Below, one piece after another: positions 9,841-20,103 of a stretch of 64,000 bases of DNA. The translations under genes were made by a program, and so were the position numbers. Source of the DNA: Streptomyces soli (GTDB lineage: Bacteria > Actinomycetota > Actinomycetes > Streptomycetales > Streptomycetaceae); the NCBI RefSeq assembly GCF_003999195.1, contig NZ_RJVR01000120.1, positions 1 to 64,000 of the forward strand, in the 5' to 3' direction. Position 1 is the first letter of the stretch. Every line of letters begins with the position of its first letter. Below the pieces are notes generated by a model. That model saw nothing but the letters and a program-made list of their open reading frames with translations. It made no database searches and was not told the DNA's origin.

Positions 9841-10224
9841 TCTGGATCTGGACGACGTCGACGGCACCCGCCGCCGCTACCGCAGCCAGCGCGCCTGCGG
9901 GGCGGCCAAACTCGCCATTGTCGTGTTCACCCGGGAACTCGCCCAGCGCATGCAGGGCACCGGCGTGACCGCGTCCGTCCTCCACCCCGCTTGATCGCCA
10001 CCGACATCAGCCGGGACAGCGCCGCAACCCGCCTGTTCATGGGCTCACGGCCGGCCAAGGCCATGCTCTCCACCCCCGACAAGGGCGCCGAGCCGCTGCT
10101 CCACCTGGCCACCCATTCCCACGCCCAAGCGATCCGCGGCCACTACTTCCACCGGCTCAAGCCCGAAGAACCGTGGGAACACTCGGTACGCCTGACCGGC
10201 CTGCCGGCCACTGACTCCCACTGA
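9841..10224 (+). pseudogene. Short-chain dehydrogenase, C-terminal fragment with frameshift
   Basis: The fragment starts LDLDDVDGTRRRYRSQRACG and contains the catalytic-helix relic (YRSQRACGAAKLA, where an active enzyme has YxxSK). It continues FTRELAQRMQGTGVTASVLHP. A 1-nt deletion near 9990 shifts the frame, after which LIATDISRDSAATRLFMG leads to GHYFHRLKPEEPW and a stop at 10222-10224. The Rossmann half is absent, replaced by the IS1380 remnant. It cannot encode an active enzyme. Confidence 0.7.
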
Positions 10225-10290
10225 ACGCCCCGCCCGGCTCCCCCATGGGACAATCTGGGACGATAGGGCGACCCACTAGGAGCGTGCGCC

Positions 10291-10689
10291 ATGACCAATC
10301 TTCGTAAACTGGGCAACTCCGACCCTCCAGGTCTCCCCGCTCTGCCTCTGCGGCAACGTCTTCGGCTGGACCGCGGACGAGGCGGAGTCCGTCGCCATGC
10401 TCGCCGCCTACGCCAGCGCAGGCGGCAATTTCAGCGACACCGCCGACGCCTACTCGGGCGGTGAGTCGGAGACGATCATCGGCAAGTGGATGGCCGATCA
10501 CGGCAACCGCTCAGACATCGTGCCGTCGCCACCAAGGTGGGCACTCACCCGCAGTACAAGGGCCTCACCCCGGCTACCATCAAGGCCTATGCCGAGGAAA
10601 CGCTGCGCCGGCTGGGCTCACAGGAACGCGGTCACCGAGTCGGTGCGTTGCGGTGCCGGCCCCCGTGCCCGGAGGAACCCCGGATGAAC
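10291..10689 (+). pseudogene. Aldo/keto reductase, frameshifted N-terminal part
   Basis: A good start (ATG 10291) begins MTNLRKLGNSD. A one-base insertion near 10325 shifts the frame to LQVSPLCLCGNVFGWTADEA and then GNFSDTADAYSGGESETIIG. A second shift near 10522 leads to ATKVGTHPQYKGLTPATIKA and YAEETLRRLG, before the protein degenerates to a stop. It holds the AKR active-site Asp/Tyr region but lacks the C-terminal half. Confidence 0.7.
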
Positions 10690-10889
10690 TGAGCTGGACG
10701 CGCTGGAGGCGATGCTCGACCGGGCGATGGCCCGAGGTGAGGCCGAGCCGGATGCGCCAGCTCACGAATTCTTCCCGCACATACTGACCGGCGTCCTGTC
10801 ACCCGCTGATCGAGCGGTGCGAGACGGACGCCGCCTACCTCAAGCGCTATCTGGACGCCGTAGTCCTTCCGGTGCTGGTGCGGAACTAA
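10690..10889 (+). pseudogene. TetR/AcrR regulator, C-terminal fragment
   Basis: The frame ELDALEAMLDRAMARGEAEP continues APAHEFFPHILTGVL. After a one-base shift near 10802 it reads PLIERCETDAAYLKRYLDAV and VLPVLVRN, with TAA at 10887-10889. This is a TetR-type C-terminal dimerisation/ligand domain. No N-terminal HTH precedes it. Such regulators often sit beside MFS exporters, so it may be the lost regulator of the exporter that starts at 10928. Confidence 0.65.
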
Positions 10890-10927
10890 CAGCAGAACTG
10901 ACCAAGAGCCACCCGGAGGACCCCTTT

Positions 10928-13351
10928 ATGTCATCCCCCGCTGTCGACGTGCCCGTCGCCGCCCCCGGCCCGGCACACGCAAGGCCCCCCATAGAGGCGG
11001 AGCACCACGTTCCGCACCGCTGGTGGGTACTGGCCGTGATCGGCCTGGCCCAGCTGATGGTGGTGCTGGACGCGACCGTCGTGAACATCGCCCTGCCGGC
11101 CGCGCAGAAGGACCTGGGCTTCTCAAACAACGGCAGGCAGTGGATCGTCACCGCGTACGCGCTTGCCTTCGGCAGCCTGCTGCTGCTCGGCGGGCGCCTT
11201 TCCGACCTGCTCGGCCGCCGGACGACCTTCCTGATCGGCCTGGTCGGCTTCGGCGCAGCCTCAGCACTGGGTGGCGCGTCCAACGGCTTCACCATGCTGG
11301 TGATCGCTCGCGCGGTGCAAGGCCTGTTCGGCGCGCTGCTGGCGCCGTCCGCGATGTCCCTGCTGACCACCACATTCACCGATGTCAAGGAGCGCGCCAG
11401 GGCGTTCGGCATCTTCGGTGCGATCGCCGGTTCCGGCGGTGCCATAGGGCTGCTGCTCGGTGGTTTGCTCACCGAACACCTCAACTGGCGCTGGACGCTG
11501 TACGTCAACGTCGTGATCGCCGTCTTCGCGGTGGCCGGCGCGTTCGTCTTCGTCCGCCGCCAGGCGCCCGCCGTGCGGCCCAAGCTCGACCTCTTGGGAG
11601 TCGTGCTGGTAGCGGCCGGGCTCTTCGGCCTGGTCTACGGTTTCTCCAACGCCGAGACGCACGGCTGGAGCAACTGGATGTGCTGGGCGTTCCTGGCCGC
11701 CGGCGGGGTCCTGATAGCGTCCTTCGTGCTCTGGGAGACCCGGGCCCAGCACCCACTGCTGCCACTGCGCGTGCTGGGCGATCGGAACCGGGCGGCGGCC
11801 TACCTCAGCGTATTCGTCGCCGGCTCAGGCATGTTCGGCGTGTTCCTCTTCCTCACCTACTACCTGGAGGTGACCCTCGCATATTCGCCGGTGAAGACGG
11901 GTCTGGCCTTTCTGCCGATGATCGGCGCGCTGATGGTCACCGCGCAGCTCGCCATCAACCTGCTGATCCCGCGGATCGGCCCCAAGGCAGTCGTGCCGGT
12001 CGGTATGGGACTCGCGGCGGGCGGCTTGGCCTGGCTCACCGCGCTCAGCCTGAACAGCGGATATGTCGCGCATATCCTGCCGCCGCTGCTGATGCTCGGC
12101 GCCGGCATCGGCCTGGTGATGCCTCCGGCCATGAGCCTGGCCACGCTCGGCGTAGCACCCGCCGACCAAGGCGTGGCCTCGGCCATGGTCAACACCATGC
12201 AGCAAGTCGGTGGTTCGATCGGCACCGCGCTGTTCAACACCATTGCGGCCACCGCGGCGACCAGCTACGCCAAGAGCCACCTAGGCATCCCGAACCTTGC
12301 CGCGCATGCCAGCCTGCACAGCTACGCGGTCGCCTACTGGACGGCGGGCGGGTTCTTCGCAGCCGGTCTGGTCATCTCGCTGCTGCTGTACCGGCGGGGC
12401 CGTCCGATGGCCCAGGTGGCCGCCCACTCGGATGCAGCGTCGGTAGCCGCGGCGACCGAGCTCCCGGAGCCCGTCTTTGTCCCGGAGCCGGTGCTGGTCG
12501 GTGCGAGTGCCGTCAACGGGACGCAGGCGCAGCCGCTGGCCGGCTTCACCTCGGTGGGTGGCAGCGGCGACGTCCTGGCGGGTGGCCGGTCCGTCGTGCG
12601 CGGTCAGGTGCGGGGTTCGGAGGGGGCCGGGGTGGCGCATGCCACCCTCACCCTGATCTCGCTGACCGGACAGCAGCTGGGCCGGGCCACCGCTCAGGCG
12701 GCAGGTGCCTATGAGCTGGCCGCCCCGGGTGCGGGTTCGTATGTACTGATCGCAGCCGCCGACGGTCACCAGCCGCAGGCCTCCACGGTGGTGATCGGCG
12801 ACGAGCCGGTCTCCCACGACGTGGTGCTGGCCGGGGCCAGCGGGCTGGCCGGCGTGGTCACCGGGGCGGCGGACGCTCTCCCGGTGGAGGGCGCGATGGT
12901 CGTGGTCACCGATGTCCGCGGCGAGGTACTGGCCACCGGCAAGTCCGGCGACGGCGGAGGCTTCGCCTTCGCCGAACTTCCGGCGGGTGACTTCACCATC
13001 GCGGTGAACGCCTCCGGCTACCGGCCGGCCGCGCAGCTGGTGCAGGTCGGCAGCACCGGGACCACCAGGCTGGAGATCGCCCTGCGGGCCGGCTCTCAGC
13101 TGCAGGGCGTCGTACGGGCCGGCACGGACCGGTGGCCGCTGGTGGATGCCAGGGTGACGCTGGTGGACGGTGCCGGGAACGTGGTGGGCACTGCCACCAC
13201 CAGCCCGGACGGCGCGTACGCCTTCACCGACCTGGACGCCGGGGAGTACTCCCTGATCGCCAGCGGCTACCCACCGGTGGCCACCGCGCTGAGCGTGCAG
13301 GGCCGCGGGCTCGACGGCTTCGACCTGCACCTCGCCCACCCCGAGGGATAA
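10928..13351 (+). CDS. DHA2-type MFS drug exporter fused to three carboxypeptidase-regulatory-like repeats
   Basis: An 807-residue protein. ATG 10928 follows GGAGGACCCCTTT. Residues about 30-500 are a 14-helix EmrB/QacA-type proton antiporter with VVLDATVVNIALPA in helix 1 and GRLSDLLGRR in the first cytosolic loop. The last 250 residues (about 557-807) are unusual for the family: three beta-sandwich repeats of carboxypeptidase-regulatory/CNA-B type, each with an ASG(L/Y) or PDGAY-like motif (GAYELAAPGAGSY; GGGFAFAELPAGDF; DGAYAFTDLDAGEY). With 14 helices the tail should be cytosolic, odd for a domain usually found outside. The next gene carries the same domain. It probably exports a small molecule or antibiotic; the tail's role is unknown. 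Confidence 0.88.
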   Translation: MSSPAVDVPVAAPGPAHARPPIEAEHHVPHRWWVLAVIGLAQLMVVLDATVVNIALPAAQKDLGFSNNGRQWIVTAYALAFGSLLLLGGRLSDLLGRRTTFLIGLVGFGAASALGGASNGFTMLVIARAVQGLFGALLAPSAMSLLTTTFTDVKERARAFGIFGAIAGSGGAIGLLLGGLLTEHLNWRWTLYVNVVIAVFAVAGAFVFVRRQAPAVRPKLDLLGVVLVAAGLFGLVYGFSNAETHGWSNWMCWAFLAAGGVLIASFVLWETRAQHPLLPLRVLGDRNRAAAYLSVFVAGSGMFGVFLFLTYYLEVTLAYSPVKTGLAFLPMIGALMVTAQLAINLLIPRIGPKAVVPVGMGLAAGGLAWLTALSLNSGYVAHILPPLLMLGAGIGLVMPPAMSLATLGVAPADQGVASAMVNTMQQVGGSIGTALFNTIAATAATSYAKSHLGIPNLAAHASLHSYAVAYWTAGGFFAAGLVISLLLYRRGRPMAQVAAHSDAASVAAATELPEPVFVPEPVLVGASAVNGTQAQPLAGFTSVGGSGDVLAGGRSVVRGQVRGSEGAGVAHATLTLISLTGQQLGRATAQAAGAYELAAPGAGSYVLIAAADGHQPQASTVVIGDEPVSHDVVLAGASGLAGVVTGAADALPVEGAMVVVTDVRGEVLATGKSGDGGGFAFAELPAGDFTIAVNASGYRPAAQLVQVGSTGTTRLEIALRAGSQLQGVVRAGTDRWPLVDARVTLVDGAGNVVGTATTSPDGAYAFTDLDAGEYSLIASGYPPVATALSVQGRGLDGFDLHLAHPEG

Positions 13352-13524
13352 AGGCTCTGGGACAGCCCGGCCGGTGCGCCAGTGGAGACACACCGGTCGG
13401 CTCCCGAGGAACACGGGCCCGGCCGCCGGCCGGAGCAGGGGACGGCCCAGGCCGCCCGGCCGGGACCCGAACATCACCAGCCCGCCGTGCAGGCGCGGCG
13501 CAGCCAACGGAAAGCGTGAGGACC

Positions 13525-14355
13525 ATGACCACCGCAACCACCGGCCTTCGGGCCCGCATCCGGACCAGGGACGGTTGGGCCCTCCCGCACGCCGTACTGA
13601 CCGTCACCGACATGACCGGGCAGCAGATGCTGCGGGAAGCCGCGGACGGCGAGGGAATGGTAAGGACCGGTGCCCTGGCGCCCGCGGCCTACACCGTGAT
13701 CATCACCGCGATCGGATACCGCCCGACCGCCTCCACCGCCATCGTGACCCCCTCCGGCACCGCCGACCTCGGAACCCTGGTACTCGCCAGGGCCGGCGGC
13801 GTGGAACTGCCCCCGCCCGGCCCCTGGAGCATCGACCCCGCCCACTCACGCGTCAGCGCGGTCGCCCAGCACCTCGGCCTGTCCAGCGTCCACGGCCACT
13901 TCCGGGAGTTCAGCGGCCGCATCGACATCGCCGACAACCCCCTCGAATCCTCCGTCTACGCCGTCATCGAAGCCGCCTCCATCGACACCGACAACACCAT
14001 GCGCGACACCCACCTGCGCTCCCCGGACTTCCTCGACGCCGACACCCACCCCAAACTCACCTACCGCAGCACGGCCCTGGAACCGGCCGGTGAGGACCGC
14101 TGGACCGTCCACGGCGAACTGGCGATACACGGCATCACCCGCCCGGTCGACCTGGACCTCTCCTACCTCGGCACCGGCGCCTGGGTCGGGGTCGGCACCC
14201 GAGCCGCGTTCCGCGCGAGCGCGGAACTGCACCGCCAGGACTTCGCCATGAACTACAACCAGGTTGTCCAGGCAGGCATCGCCATCGTCGGCACCACCCT
14301 CAAAATCGAAATCGCCATCGAAGCCGTCCAGGGCGAACAGCTCCCCATGCCGTGA
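13525..14355 (+). CDS. YceI family protein with N-terminal carboxypeptidase-regulatory-like domain
   Basis: A 276-residue protein; ATG at 13525 with GTGAGGACC upstream. Residues about 5-90 are one beta-sandwich repeat (HAVLTVTDMTGQQMLREAA, GALAPAAYTVIITAIGY). It is clearly related to the tail repeats of the preceding MFS protein, which carry LTLISLTGQQLGRA. Residues about 95-270 form a YceI lipocalin-like barrel, starting WSIDPAHSRVSAVAQHLGLS and including FSGRIDI and GELAIHGITRPVDL. YceI proteins bind long hydrophobic or isoprenoid molecules. No signal peptide is apparent. It lies 173 bp downstream of the exporter on the same strand. The shared domain and order suggest a functional pair. Confidence 0.85.
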   Translation: MTTATTGLRARIRTRDGWALPHAVLTVTDMTGQQMLREAADGEGMVRTGALAPAAYTVIITAIGYRPTASTAIVTPSGTADLGTLVLARAGGVELPPPGPWSIDPAHSRVSAVAQHLGLSSVHGHFREFSGRIDIADNPLESSVYAVIEAASIDTDNTMRDTHLRSPDFLDADTHPKLTYRSTALEPAGEDRWTVHGELAIHGITRPVDLDLSYLGTGAWVGVGTRAAFRASAELHRQDFAMNYNQVVQAGIAIVGTTLKIEIAIEAVQGEQLPMP

Positions 14356-14703
14356 GCCGCCCGAACCGCGCTCCGGCTCATCACCGGGGCCGGCAGCCAC
14401 CCGGCGCCGGCCGACGCCCACCCGGCCGAACACTCCCCTCCCGGTGCTGCACCACCCCGACCCCGAGGGACATGACCCGTCACTGCGTCACGAAAATCTT
14501 GCAAGTGCCAATTTCTACTGGCCGCTGACACAGGGGGATCGCCCGCGCCTGTTGACCTTGTTCGTCCAGATGAGCGCTGGTGCCGCTGCTCCCTCCCCTC
14601 ATCTGGCACGTACGTGGCACGTGGACGGAAGATCGCTGTCTCCTGTACTCGGTCCCGCCGAGGACCCAACGGCGTTTCGTTCGCATCCTTGGCGAGCCGG
14701 CCG
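14356..14703. other. Intergenic between convergent genes
   Basis: No gene is supported in this gap between the ends of the YceI gene and the minus-strand FUSC gene. A short palindromic patch, CACGTACGTG, lies at about 14607-14616. No clear intrinsic terminator was identified. Confidence 0.45.
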
Positions 14704-16713
14704 TCATCCGGTGGTTGTGCGGATGCGCTGAAGTTCAGTCACGACATCCGTCAGCGGGACGCATCCGAGCGGGCCCTGCTGTTCGGGACGTTGTCCGTTA
14801 CGGGGGCGCAACCTACTTCGACCGTGGTGCGGGCGGTCGATGCCATCGACGACCGACCGCATCAAAGTGGTCACATAATAGGCATCCCGGGTGTCGAGCG
14901 TCTCGGCGCCCTGTACCGTCCGGACGGCGCACGCCGTAGTGGCATCCACGATCCGCTCTGCCGCGGCCAGCACCGCCATCCAATCGATCACCGTGTCGGA
15001 CCGGTGGGAAAGCTCCGCTGCCGCGATCTCGGCCGCGCTCTTGGCCTCACCGAGCGCGCTATAGGCGGCCCTGCGCAGCGCCCTGCGCTCGGCGACCCGC
15101 TCTCCAGGCGGAACCGTCAGTACGTGGTGGACATACGCTTCGGTGCTGCGTAGGGCGACCACGACCCGGTGGCGGATGCGGGCCGCCTGACCGGCGAGGC
15201 GGGGAAGGTGACCGACCAGCAGGACGATGCCGCAAGCCATCGTGGTATCGGTGAGGCGGGTCCAGTCCGCCTGTCTGTCACCCGCGGCCGTCAAGAGGGC
15301 AAGCACCATCACGGCTAGTACGGCGGTCGACAGCGCGAAGTGTCGTGTCGACATGGGGATCAGGGCGCCGGCCAATCCGGCCATCACCACAAACCACCAC
15401 GTTCCCCCACCTGCCGCGGCGGACACCCCGGCGAACACCAGCACCCCTGCCACCGTCCCGACGAAGCGGCTCACGATCCGCGAGAACAAGGGTCCCATGT
15501 CGGGCTTGACCAGGAACGCGGCCGTCAGGGGCAGCCAGTACCAATGCGCGGCGTGCAGCGTCAACGCTATGGCCGAGCCGGCAGCGACGCACACCGCGAC
15601 CTGCCCTCCGTAGCCCCAGCCCGCCGCGCCCAGCGCGTGTCGCCACAGCCCCGGCCTCAGCCGGGCACCGGGAGCCTGGTGAGCGGCCACCCCCGAAGCT
15701 TCCTCGCCGCGGCCGAAGGCAACTGCGGCGTCCCGCAACGCACCGTCGAAAGCCGCAAGGGCCGCAGTGCCGCCGCCGGAAAGCGGCAGCGGCCCCGTCT
15801 GGGATCCGCTGCGGACCGCCGCGGCCATGCAGCGTACCCCTTCGATGCTGCCGGGCGGCAGCGGGCGAGCCTCCCACAACAGCGCCACCGTTGCCTCACA
15901 CAGCGCCGCCACCGCCTCGAAACGGTCGCGGGTCCGCTGCGTTTCCCCGGCGCCGGCCACCCGGCGCGAGCCAAACGCCTCGTCCGCCGTGTCCAGCACG
16001 GACGTCAACCTTCGCCTGGCCGACAACGCCTCCGGGCCGCCCACCGCGCCGAGAGCATCGGCTAGGGCGTCGCACGCCCCTGCGACGACAGCTCGCTCGC
16101 TGCCGGCTGCCCGTGCGCCGAAGGCCCAGGGCGCCAGCAGCCGCAACAGCAACAGCCAGCCACCCCCGAGCAGAAAGCACCCCGCCTCTATCCAGGGCGA
16201 ACCGGCCAGCGGAACACCGGCGCCCAGGACAGCGGCGACCAAAAGCTGCATCCCCGCTGCCGACCAGACCGGACCCAGAACGCTCACCGCGCCGGATACC
16301 AAGCCGACGGCGAAGAGCACGGAAACGATCAGCCATCGAGAGGCGGCCTCCGCCGTCGCGGCACCCATCAGCAGCCCGCAGGCCCCCGTCAGTGCCGGGA
16401 TTCCGATACGCCGAACGCCAGTGCGACGCGTTCCGGAACCATCGTTCAGTCCGGCGAGCATCGCCCCCAGGCCGGCCATGACTCCCGCCCACGGCACACC
16501 AACGACAAGGCTCACGCCCAGCAGCGGGCCGCCGGCAAGGGCTCCGCGCACCACCGCGGCCCACGGCACTGACGATCGCTGCCAGCGCAATGGATGGACC
16601 AGCCACAGGGGCACAGACCCCTTCGGCGCGGACCCCGGGCGACCCGCACGGCTGAAGTAGGGCCACCGCAACGCAGCCGGAGCCGTACGTTCAGGACGGT
16701 GGGCGCGACTCAC
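14704..16713 (-). CDS. FUSC-family membrane protein
   Basis: A 669-residue integral membrane protein. I chose GTG 16711-16713 because GAAGGAGACC precedes it; the frame extends upstream without another good ribosome site. It has two clusters of about six helices (about 55-200 and about 370-500), e.g. GVSLVVGVPWAGVMAGLGAM and YWLPLTAAFLVKPDMG. These are separated and followed by cytosolic helical domains. This is the FUSC/aromatic-acid-exporter (YccS/AaeB-like) layout. The conserved P-D-x-G-P-L motif after the first helix of the second half is present (KPDMGPLFSR). Substrates are unknown; related proteins efflux aromatic acids. It is divergent from a second FUSC gene 1 kb away. Confidence 0.85.
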   Translation of the reverse strand: MSRAHRPERTAPAALRWPYFSRAGRPGSAPKGSVPLWLVHPLRWQRSSVPWAAVVRGALAGGPLLGVSLVVGVPWAGVMAGLGAMLAGLNDGSGTRRTGVRRIGIPALTGACGLLMGAATAEAASRWLIVSVLFAVGLVSGAVSVLGPVWSAAGMQLLVAAVLGAGVPLAGSPWIEAGCFLLGGGWLLLLRLLAPWAFGARAAGSERAVVAGACDALADALGAVGGPEALSARRRLTSVLDTADEAFGSRRVAGAGETQRTRDRFEAVAALCEATVALLWEARPLPPGSIEGVRCMAAAVRSGSQTGPLPLSGGGTAALAAFDGALRDAAVAFGRGEEASGVAAHQAPGARLRPGLWRHALGAAGWGYGGQVAVCVAAGSAIALTLHAAHWYWLPLTAAFLVKPDMGPLFSRIVSRFVGTVAGVLVFAGVSAAAGGGTWWFVVMAGLAGALIPMSTRHFALSTAVLAVMVLALLTAAGDRQADWTRLTDTTMACGIVLLVGHLPRLAGQAARIRHRVVVALRSTEAYVHHVLTVPPGERVAERRALRRAAYSALGEAKSAAEIAAAELSHRSDTVIDWMAVLAAAERIVDATTACAVRTVQGAETLDTRDAYYVTTLMRSVVDGIDRPHHGRSRLRPRNGQRPEQQGPLGCVPLTDVVTELQRIRTTTG

Positions 16714-17715
16714 ACGGTCTCCTTCGGCACGGTGGCGGCTTGACTGCCAACTGAGCGCCGTCGACCTGGAGGCTTCACAGCCAGTGTACGTGTCGCTCGC
16801 CGCGGCCATTCGGAGGAGACTGCGGCGGGAGCGAGGTGACCGGACAACGAGCAGCCGCACCTAGCCAGCCGGCGGCCGCCCGGGCGCATGGTCTCAGCAC
16901 TGACGGGAAGGCTCACGCGAACTGCCTCGGCTGGGCCGCGGCCCGGCTCCCGGCCCGCCCACACATCGACGGTGCCACAAACACCCAGCGCGCAGGGCCC
17001 CGGCACGCCACAGCGCCTTCGGCACGCCCCCGCAGCCCGCTCGCCTCAGCTGGTGGGAAGCGGCCGGACAAGAGGCTGCTCGCGCTGAGGCAGCATGCGA
17101 GGCGTTTCGAGGCAAGGGGCACGGCCCGGGACAGCGTCGTAATCGGCTCTGCCTCCGGTTCGCAGGCGCTTCCCACGTGCGCCAAGCGAACCGAACGAGT
17201 CGGGGCTCGAACCGTCGCCCAGCACCACGCCACGACGTCGGACGCGTCCTCGCCACCGGCGAGGCCTACACCCGCCCCACCCATCACAAGAAAGACACCA
17301 CACCACGGCGCACACGGGCTGATGGACACACCGATCACCGAGCACACTGATGCCATGCGCGTGGACGAGACCGCCAAGCTGACCGCTGCCAGGGCCGGAG
17401 TCGCCTTGGCAGCCGTCATCGCCTCCCCCGTCCTCATCGTGGCCGGGGCCCACCTTCGCAGCCGCTGCCTTGGCTACACCTTCCGCGACGGCGCACCGGC
17501 CCCAGTGGAGAAGGAGCACGGGTGGGTCAACATCCAGTACATCGCTGTGACTAGCACGATCGTGGATTGGCTCTGCACACCCTCCCAAGCCCTGACATCT
17601 CGCCTTAGACGCTGGCACTGTCGATGAGACACAGAACGGCGGGACCGGAAACTTAGACCACAAGGTGAGTACCTGATCCTGACATGCCAAGTCTGTTTCT
17701 GTTCAGTGGCGCCCG
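16714..17715. other. 1-kb region without a convincing gene
   Basis: This gap separates two divergent FUSC genes. Open frames exist on both strands but lack codon-position bias, ribosome sites or recognisable motifs. The only faintly protein-like piece is a short plus-strand stretch from about 17355, MRVDETAKLTAARAGVALAA followed by a hydrophobic run. It could be a degraded membrane-protein start. The promoters of both FUSC genes should be here. Confidence 0.4.
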
Positions 17716-20103
17716 GTGCGGTCACCGCGGCGACTCCTTGGTGGGACCATCAGAATTTTGGTGGACGCCCTCGGCTCGATGGCATTGGTGGTGCAGATGA
17801 TCTGGCGGATCCCCGTTTCGAAGATCAAGGAGACGTGCACTGATCTTTGGGACCGCTTCGTCGCCTCTGACCCAGGACTGCTGCGCCTGAGCGCGGGCCT
17901 GCGCACGGTCTCCGCGATCGCGCTGACGCTCGCCGTCCTCGCCGCGTTCGGCGCCGGCGGCAGCCTGCTGGTCGCCGGGGCGGTGTCGGCCCTGTCGGCG
18001 ACCTTCGCGATCACCGAGCCGCGCCCGCGCGACCAGGCCGTCACCCTCGCCCTCGGCTTGCCGGCCGCGCTGCTCGCGGTCACGCACGCCGCGCTGCTCG
18101 CCCCGTACGTCGTCGCGGGCGACTTGACCTTCCTCCTCCTGATCTTCATCGCGGTCTATGCGCGCCGCTTCGGCGACCGGGTCGCCTCCGTCGGGCTGAT
18201 CGGCTTCCAGATCTACTACGTCTCGGTCTTCGTCCATGCGCGGACCGCCCAGCTGCCGCAGCTGTACGCGACAACGGCCGCTGCCTTCTGCGTCGCCGCC
18301 GTGGCCCGCTTCGTCCTCGTCCCATCCACGCCCGAGCGCACCCTGCGGCAGTTGCGCCGCGCCTTCCGGGCCCGACTGGCGCAGGTGATCGCGACCGAGG
18401 AGGAGCTGGTCGGCGAGCCGACGGACAACGGCAGCGAGAAGACGGTCGACACGCTCCGCCGCAACACCGCGCGGCTGCACGAGTGCGCGCTGATGATCCA
18501 GGGCCGCCTGGAGGACGGCACCCGCGACCCCGTCACCGCCGCTGTCCTCCAACGGCGCATCGCCGACGCCGAGATCGCCGCCGAACGGCTCGGCCTGCTG
18601 TTGCTCAAGGCCCGCCACCGCGACATTGCCGACACCACCCTCACCCTCCACCTGCCGGATGTGCCTCCACTCGCCGCGCCCGCCCATCCCGATGCGGAGG
18701 ACGAGACGACGCGCCTGACCCGCCGCGAGCTGCGGGCGCTCCACCTCCTCGTCACCCGCGCCACGACCGCCGACCGCAGGACCGGCATCGCCCTGCTGCG
18801 CAACCGGCTGCTCGGCTACCAGGACGACGAGAACCTGCCGGCCGGCCCGCTCGCCGTCCAGGACGTCTTCCGGGCGATCGGCGAGGCCGCCCGCGCCGTG
18901 CTCGGTCTGAGCATCGCGCTCGACCCCCGGCACGAGGCGTCCGAGGACGACAGCCCCGAGACCATCCGCTCGCGTGAAGAGCTGGACGCCGAGGACATCT
19001 CCATGGCCAGCCGAAAGGAGGAGGACGCCCAAGCGGATCGAGAGCCGTCCGGCCTCAACCGGCCGACGACGCGGACTGCCTTCCAAGTGACCACCGGCTC
19101 AGCACTGGCCATCACGGGCGGCGAGCTCTTGTCCCCCCAACGCTGGTACTGGGCAGTGCTCACCTGCTGGGTGGTCTTCCTCAACAGCCGTACCACCGGC
19201 GAAATCCTCGTCAAGGGCTACCAGCGGCTGCTCGGCACCGTCGGCGGCGCGCTCGCCGGCGGCGCGCTCGCGGTCCTCGTCGGCCACCACACCCGGACCG
19301 CGTTCACGCTCGTCCTGATATGCGTCTTCGGTGCCTACTTCACCGCGCCACTCTCCTACGTGCTGACGTCGTTCTTCCTCGCAGCGACACTCGCCCTGCT
19401 CTACACCCTGCTGGGCACCCTCAACCCGGCCGTGCTGGAGGTGCGCATCGAGGAGACGGCACTAGGCGCGGCGTCCGGCATTATCGCGGCGCTGTGCGTG
19501 CTTCCGGTACGCACGCACCACCAAATTGACCAGCAACTGCGTACCGTGCTGCTGCGGCTGGGCGAGGTCAGCAAGGCCTCGGTCGAACAGCTCAGCGGCG
19601 GCCCGGAGTCCGATCTCCTCGACATCGCACGGAAGCTGGACACCGCCCTGGACGATCTGGAGCACTCCACGCAGCCGCTGACCCACCCGATCACGCCACT
19701 GCGCGTACAGCGGCGCACCATCCGCTATGCCGTGGCGCTGCTGGAGACCTGCGCCTACCACGCCCGCAGCCTGGCCGCGACAGCCGAGCTGGTGCCCAGC
19801 AGTACGCGGATCGCGGCCGATCCGCAGCTCGCCCAGGTGGGGGAACGGATCGACCGCAATCTGCGGGCCCTCATCGCGCACCTCGACGGCGAGCGCGGCG
19901 GTGAGGCACCCGCCGTCGAAGCGGGCGCGAGCGTGGCCTCAATGCTGGAGAACACCACGCAAAACACCGTCACCGACCGCGTGCTGCGGCACCTGCAACG
20001 GCTCGACTTGAGCGTGGCCGGCCTGGCCCGCCCGATCGGCGTGGCCCTCGCCGATGAAGGCGACCAAGCGCACACGCGGCAACGCAGCAGAGGCGCCGCC
20101 TGA
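17716..20103 (+). CDS. FUSC-family membrane protein (second copy)
   Basis: Up to 795 residues from GTG 17716. The start is uncertain: no strong ribosome site is visible, and TTG 17758, GTG 17761 or ATG 17779 are alternatives. It has an N-terminal helix bundle (about 60-200: GLRTVSAIALTLAVLAAFG, TFAITEPRPRDQ) and a long soluble helical middle (about 200-455). The second bundle (about 455-600) has YWAVLTCWVVFLNSRTTGE, GYQRLLGTVGGALAGG and VRIEETALGA, diagnostic for FUSC/YccS-type proteins. A cytosolic helical tail follows. It is probably an efflux or envelope-stress transporter of aromatic or lipid-like compounds. It differs clearly from the 14704-16713 protein, so it is not a recent duplicate. 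Confidence 0.85.
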   Translation: MRSPRRLLGGTIRILVDALGSMALVVQMIWRIPVSKIKETCTDLWDRFVASDPGLLRLSAGLRTVSAIALTLAVLAAFGAGGSLLVAGAVSALSATFAITEPRPRDQAVTLALGLPAALLAVTHAALLAPYVVAGDLTFLLLIFIAVYARRFGDRVASVGLIGFQIYYVSVFVHARTAQLPQLYATTAAAFCVAAVARFVLVPSTPERTLRQLRRAFRARLAQVIATEEELVGEPTDNGSEKTVDTLRRNTARLHECALMIQGRLEDGTRDPVTAAVLQRRIADAEIAAERLGLLLLKARHRDIADTTLTLHLPDVPPLAAPAHPDAEDETTRLTRRELRALHLLVTRATTADRRTGIALLRNRLLGYQDDENLPAGPLAVQDVFRAIGEAARAVLGLSIALDPRHEASEDDSPETIRSREELDAEDISMASRKEEDAQADREPSGLNRPTTRTAFQVTTGSALAITGGELLSPQRWYWAVLTCWVVFLNSRTTGEILVKGYQRLLGTVGGALAGGALAVLVGHHTRTAFTLVLICVFGAYFTAPLSYVLTSFFLAATLALLYTLLGTLNPAVLEVRIEETALGAASGIIAALCVLPVRTHHQIDQQLRTVLLRLGEVSKASVEQLSGGPESDLLDIARKLDTALDDLEHSTQPLTHPITPLRVQRRTIRYAVALLETCAYHARSLAATAELVPSSTRIAADPQLAQVGERIDRNLRALIAHLDGERGGEAPAVEAGASVASMLENTTQNTVTDRVLRHLQRLDLSVAGLARPIGVALADEGDQAHTRQRSRGAA

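Follow-up and report, generated by a model that had tools for sequence, protein, structure and literature searches.

A pair of adjacent genes in a 64,000-nucleotide stretch of Streptomyces soli DNA (contig NZ_RJVR01000120.1, positions 1 to 64,000; hereafter the window) encodes an exporter of the major facilitator superfamily (MFS) that ends in three beta-sandwich repeats (gene A) and, directly behind it, a lipocalin-like YceI protein that begins with the same kind of domain (gene B). The comparisons described here demonstrate that the sandwich tail of gene A is a swappable module, present on several exporter cores of the DHA2 type and on MMPL pumps, and they suggest, from sequence relationships, that the tail goes with its gene B partner rather than with the pump core. 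The reading that we favour, tentatively, is that gene A is a multidrug exporter to which gene B, as a lipocalin-like carrier of the cytosol, is coupled via their common transthyretin-like (CarboxypepD_reg) domain; in this reading we infer the docking, the ligand, and the hand-over.

We determined how widely the tail and gene B occur and whether they occur together. The tail was found in 156 of the 249 genomes of the family Streptomycetaceae (E ≤ 1e-30), with four tails in this genome alone. The initial annotation of the window regarded such repeats as rare on MFS exporters; within the family this is not the case. At a threshold of 1e-25, the tail is present in 53 of 394 genomes of the class, including 20 from other families. 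The gene B family gave 110 matches in 107 of the 249 family genomes (E ≤ 1e-80), and all 107 fall within the 156 tail-bearing ones. For 100 of the 110 matches, a same-strand tail among the tail matches listed ends 82-478 bases ahead of the gene; the spacing between gene A and gene B is 173 bases. The remaining ten matches were inspected singly, and seven of them also stand behind a tail, while the other three lie at a contig end (G213), behind a tailless pump of a MarR-pump operon (G130), and in a second family of CarboxypepD_reg-YceI (CpD-YceI) proteins (G230:C73). Gene co-occurrence had been set beforehand as the refuting test for the pair, and 107 of the 109 close relatives of gene B were found directly downstream of a tail, which rules out chance adjacency. 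The commonest arrangement, hereafter the standard operon, is MarR-exporter-tail-YceI with a Y-type core (core types are explained below). Outside the family, a YceI partner was present at 7 of 21 fetched tail loci, in three further families. Tails also occur in 5 plasmid records; in the S. anthocyanicus plasmid the order is TetR-MarR-tailed pump, with no CpD-YceI neighbour among the genes listed, and the NCBI name of the tailed protein is just 'MFS transporter'. A single scan against viral contigs turned up no relatives of the tail.

To compare the pumps that bear the tail, 80 stretches were hand-picked from the listed matches and more loci were added for holding gene B, which means that the shares of core types are not frequencies. 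Core types were assigned as the best match among six queries, some of these matches being weak, and L032, judged by its length to be the same contig as L016, was left out of the counts. The 104 tailed frames comprised 50 of Y type (45 with a YceI neighbour), 23 of W type (1), 10 of X type (1, the window pair), 7 of Z type (2), 4 of V type (0), 4 MMPL pumps (1), and 6 with unrecognised cores (2). All four MMPL proteins (L015, L122, L123, and L165) have three PF13620 stretches by Pfam, and in S. scabichelini (L015) the TetR-MMPL-tail arrangement is followed immediately by a CpD-YceI gene whose product is 75% identical to gene B. Hydropathy gave 13 or 14 segments for the MMPL cores, a method too coarse to settle topology; MmpL proteins have both termini inside. 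A tail tree, built by a quick method, took in the 93 frames out of 104 that had a score ≥ 200 and a length ≥ 220, with support from the Shimodaira-Hasegawa-like approximate likelihood ratio test (SH-aLRT) only. A 16-row clade (support 97) brings together the window tail (X core), the tails of L011 (Y) and L012 (Z), all three from this genome, and that of the MMPL pump L015. The window tail is thus placed beside tails of Y- and Z-type pumps from the genome it belongs to, apart from three other X tails, which form their own clade (99). The MMPL tails L122 and L123 join the Y tails L114 and L108 from the same two genomes (96), L126 groups with L130 from one genome (98; this genome, G099, holds two pairs and is marked 10% contaminated), and the V tails L139 and L145 fall inside a Y-tail clade (95). 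The W tails form a separate clade (99). The mixed clades unite tails that belong to one genome or genus but sit on different pumps; tails have thus moved between pumps, by either fusion or gene conversion. Separately, this genome also encodes a V-type MFS pump with a single C-terminal CarboxypepD_reg domain (L010:9867-11870).

The window pair is itself a mosaic. Positions 10691-12461, comprising the end of a TetR gene and the X-type core, are 91.8% identical in DNA to L042, a locus with a TetR-preceded pump, and positions 12582-14303, comprising the tail and the CpD-YceI gene, are colinear with L011, the second pair of this genome, at 74% DNA identity. Upstream, positions 10312-10617 match at 75% the aldo/keto reductase gene that lies ahead of the standard operon in L011. 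At the protein level, the window tail is 49% identical to that of L042 and 75% identical to that of L011. Along the comparison with L042, identity drops from 33-39 of 40 to 26 of 38 from position 12440 onward and the BLAST match stops at 12461, placing the similarity junction inside the disordered linker of gene A. The simplest account is that an X-type core and part of its TetR gene replaced the MarR gene and a Y-type core, and that the tail and gene B stayed. Co-inheritance of the tail and gene B while the core is exchanged is the pattern expected of a coupled pair. We also correlated identities, using 43 of 52 paired frames: across the 42 MFS pairs among these, gene B identity correlates at 0.86 with the tail and at 0.65 with the core, and for the window pair alone the values are 0.83 and 0.14, respectively. 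The coordinates of the features are given in Table 1.

Table 1. Features of the exporter-YceI pair and its upstream remnants, in window positions.
Feature	Position	Strand	Remarks
Gene A, 807 aa, MFS exporter of the DHA2 type ending in three sandwiches	10928..13351	+	
Pump core of gene A, 14 helices, residues about 29-490, X type	11012..12397	+	nearest models TIGR00711, tcmA, LmrA
Disordered linker of gene A, residues 495-552	12410..12583	+	pLDDT <50; similarity to donor-type pump L042 stops within
Tail repeat 1 (CarboxypepD_reg), contains TGQQ	12596..12829	+	43.8 bits
Tail repeat 2 (CarboxypepD_reg)	12845..13087	+	51.1 bits
Tail repeat 3 (CarboxypepD_reg), GYPP motif invariant in 17 tails	13100..13300	+	42.5 bits
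Gene B, 276 aa, YceI lipocalin-like barrel preceded by a CarboxypepD_reg domain; lacks a signal peptide	13525..14355	+	
CarboxypepD_reg domain of gene B, residues 8-82, contains TGQQ	13546..13770	+	PF13620 32.8-33.6 bits, cut-off 32.3
YceI barrel of gene B, residues 101-267	13825..14325	+	PF04264 149.5 bits, cut-off 23.7
TetR regulator C-terminus remnant, two frames	10691..10886	+	82-83% identical to TetR preceding L042 pump
Broken 5' part of aldo/keto reductase gene	10291..10619	+	such gene precedes standard operon in L011, L031

The initial annotation had located the pair at 10928-14355 and described it as a three-repeat exporter followed by a YceI protein with the same domain; the coordinates were exact and the domain make-up was confirmed. 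A frame or wrong-start artefact is ruled out by the sequence, in which GGAGGA precedes the start of gene A at 10928 and GAGG that of gene B at 13525. No promoter or terminator pattern was found in 10200-14800 by a pattern search, which is weakly informative for this organism. Gene A scores 179.6 bits against MFS_1 (Pfam) and 251.1 bits against TIGR00711 efflux_EmrB, passing the curated cut-off of 230.2 for the DHA2 family, and PF13620 matches its tail in three stretches (110.7 bits summed). The hydropathy profile has 14 segments at or above 1.42, the next best, within the tail, reaching 1.18, and the even-numbered loops hold 21 lysines and arginines against 6 in the odd-numbered ones, which predicts that both the N- and the C-terminus are cytosolic. 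An AlphaFold2 model (29-row alignment) consists of 14 long helices, a disordered stretch, and three beta-sandwiches, with a mean predicted local distance difference test (pLDDT) of 82.7 and a predicted template modelling score (pTM) of 0.61, at which the position of the tail relative to the pump is not readable. Its core matches the solved structures of EfpA (Z 45.8), QacA (Z 42.3), and EmrB (Z 41.7); here and for gene B, structural matches with Z < 10 were left uninterpreted. The 14 helices and the cytosolic tail that had been proposed for this protein are thus borne out by predictions, namely hydropathy, charge count, and modelled helices. Close to the pair, two large membrane-protein-like frames at 14704-16860 (-) and 17716-20103 (+) contain repeated hydrophobic halves and may be FUSC-like, judged by eye; on the other side, 9860-10886 holds broken genes ahead of the pump (dehydrogenase-like by eye, aldo/keto reductase, and the TetR end), left as scars by the rearrangement.

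The model of gene B (30 alignment rows, mean pLDDT 84.4) joins a transthyretin-like domain, similar to carboxypeptidase D (Z 12.4 over 79 residues), to a barrel that matches YceI-fold structures with Z 20.8-22.7 over 159-166 residues. The nearest of these are 7bwl, a Pseudomonas 'antibiotic sequester' (Z 22.7), 1y0g (YceI; Z 22.3), and BcnA (5ixh; Z 21.4), and the polyisoprenoid-binding TT1927b is also among the nearest solved folds. No signal peptide was recognised in the gene B sequence, because the sandwich begins already at residue 8, and 30 aligned relatives likewise begin at the CarboxypepD_reg domain. E. coli YceI and BcnA carry an export signal. The cytosolic placement of the tail had been called contrary to the usual extracellular home of this domain; the placement stands, but the oddity is smaller than it seemed, since neither of the two proteins has an export signal. 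A loop of gene B at 14160-14200 differs from its relatives, with AWVGVGT in the window where 29 of 30 aligned CpD-YceI proteins have WGG, perhaps the outcome of paired compensating frameshifts.

The relationship between the sandwiches of the two proteins was investigated with a profile of the gene B domain (45 sequences), searched against those CarboxypepD_reg proteins that had been fetched from this genome (the window, L001, L002, and L009-L014). The nearest relatives other than gene B proteins were repeats of pump tails, with scores of 18-41 bits for three-repeat tails and 41 bits for repeat 1 of the window tail. The second CpD-YceI protein of the genome reached 23 bits, and 2 of the 12 listed repeats from three-repeat tails scored lower; L001 and L002 were outside the best 25 rows, and L014 entered with chance-level scores only. 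The gene A tail and the gene B sandwich are 34% identical over residues 8-92, and neither the G nor the Q of a TGxQ motif varies across 17 tails or across 30 CpD-YceI proteins. The TGQQ motif that the initial annotation saw in both proteins is kept in the form TGxQ, but 'closely related' is a strong term for the domains at this identity.

A published system could be connected to the standard operon. The SAV4189 operator TTGCCYKHRSCAA was found near the MarR start in all 37 Y-type operons that had a clear MarR match (31 without mismatch, 6 with one), compared to 17 of 740 stretches drawn at random from these loci (10 without mismatch, 7 with one), and an SCO4033-like gene is present at 32 of the 50 Y-type loci. 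From the operator, the neighbour gene, and the gene length, the first two genes of the standard operon are very probably SAV4189-SAV4190 of S. avermitilis and SCO4032-SCO4031 of S. coelicolor, which are named as their homologues in the passages of PMC6036246 on this system. According to the same passages, SAV4189-sav_4190 is a co-transcribed MarR-MFS operon of Streptomyces avermitilis, and hygromycin B and thiostrepton release the SAV4189 regulator, raising sav_4190 about 75- and 71-fold, respectively (PMC6036246). The deletion flanks described there reach +2446 (PMC6036246), so sav_4190 is longer than a plain DHA2 pump. The passages on SAV4189-SAV4190 mention neither a tail nor a third gene (PMC6036246). 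SCO4121/SCO4122, considered as a candidate for the characterised relative, was dropped, the standard operon having the SCO4033-like neighbour and the SAV4189 operator instead. The window copy has the tailed exporter followed by the CpD-YceI gene, as in the standard operon, with an X-type core instead; it has no MarR match and no operator, the best site in 10200-10928 having 3 mismatches. L011 has a MarR gene and two one-mismatch operator sites, at 10227 and 10256.

On the coupled reading, the barrel of gene B would pick up a drug or intermediate of hydrophobic nature in the cytosol, the sandwich of gene B would dock on the pump tail by the same fold, and the load would then pass to the inward-facing cavity of the pump. 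The tail would serve as an adaptor that fits different, interchangeable pumps, and the exporter of the standard operon would be induced by drugs. A broader version, to which we give still more cautious credence, is that drug pumps of actinomycetes from two unrelated superfamilies, DHA2 and MMPL, have a common plug-in tail in the cytosol to which a lipocalin-like shuttle with the same domain docks, a general inner adaptor feeding hydrophobic drugs to interchangeable exporters, with cores exchanged by linker recombination.

Several observations weigh against this interpretation. No CpD-YceI neighbour accompanies 22 of 23 W-type tailed frames (at least 21), 9 of 10 X, 5 of 7 Z, 4 of 4 V, 3 of 4 MMPL, and 5 of 50 Y frames, and of the 156 family genomes with a tail, 49 gave no CpD-YceI match at E ≤ 1e-80. 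With so many tailed pumps lacking such a neighbour, the function of the tail cannot be the docking of the gene B product alone. The MarR-Y-type pump-CpD-YceI operon of G130 (L189:4265-6397), in which the pump is tailless, amounts to a natural tail deletion, and the second CpD-YceI family (8 loci: L013:9189-10100 in this genome and L035-L041; 38-41% identical to gene B) has no tailed pump beside it within the fetched stretches. The sandwiches of the partners are only about one third identical. When exchanged loci are left out, the correlation of gene B with the tail (0.82) has a small advantage over that with the core (0.77), and at another core exchange, L158, gene B tracks neither the tail (-0.07) nor the core (0.21).

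The tailed pumps and genomes without a partner would also be expected if the tail had a pump job of its own, such as cytosolic gating, oligomerisation, or substrate sensing, and gene B were a separate detoxifying lipocalin of the same operon with an acquired copy of the domain. Repeat 3 is the best conserved between Y-type and W-type tails (0.58 vs 0.55 and 0.46), fitting a function common to all tails. We nevertheless consider this explanation rather unlikely, because it accounts neither for the Y-type tail kept beside gene B when the window core was exchanged nor for the CarboxypepD_reg domain in every close relative of gene B. The pumps that lack gene B would equally need a common third party, for example a CarboxypepD_reg protein or a cytoskeletal or membrane scaffold, if such a factor bound both sandwiches and gathered the pump and the lipocalin, and the several tailed pump types within one genome agree with this; the proposal is nonetheless improbable, no candidate having been found in a search that was not carried out genome by genome. 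Least probable of all, the YceI part could act on quinones or oxidised lipids in the way of Burkholderia BcnA, which works with the cytochrome LcoA, the link to the pump being drug co-regulation only. The YceI fold of gene B fits such a role, and a role in lipid-peroxyl detoxification is reported for BcnA (PMC9113575). However, gene B has no signal peptide and BcnA is secreted, no gene for a cytochrome was noticed next to gene B (no systematic search was made), and the domain tag would be left unexplained.

The component families are known and the MarR-pump pair has been published as SAV4189-SAV4190; our literature search, which mostly did not reach subscription journals, returned no paper that deals with the tail, its occurrence on MMPL pumps as well, or the CpD-YceI partner. 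To our knowledge, exporters are thought to take their substrates from the membrane or the cytosol without inner-side helpers. If the coupled reading is true, a cytosolic lipocalin tied to a pump by a shared domain, together with a tail exchanged between MFS and MMPL proteins, would be an intracellular counterpart of the Gram-negative periplasmic adaptors. SAV4189-SAV4190 and SCO4032-SCO4031, very probably the standard operon, already offer a regulator, inducers, and deletion strains, which makes the idea readily testable in model Streptomyces, and it would bear on antibiotic yield because deletion of sav_4190 raised avermectin output, as stated in the passages on that gene (PMC6036246).

Compared to known systems, the core of gene A resembles the DHA2/EmrB-type exporters (TIGR00711; EfpA, QacA, and EmrB) in both model score and structure, and differs from the EmrB type in adding a 250-residue three-sandwich tail, predicted to lie on the cytosolic side. 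The neighbour of EmrB is EmrA, a membrane fusion protein outside, whereas that of gene A is a predicted cytosolic lipocalin-like protein. Gene B shares its barrel fold with YceI and bacterial lipocalins (E. coli YceI, BcnA, TT1927b, and 7bwl); unlike YceI and BcnA, it has no signal peptide, carries an N-terminal transthyretin-like domain, and is encoded with an exporter. In mycobacteria, the LprG-P55 system (Rv1411c-Rv1410c) likewise encodes an MFS pump with a lipid-binding carrier, LprG being a lipoprotein outside the membrane, and the structure of a P55 homologue (8pnl) is among the structural matches listed. The pairing of pump and carrier is alike in both systems; in contrast to LprG, the gene B product has a predicted intracellular location and a domain in common with its pump.

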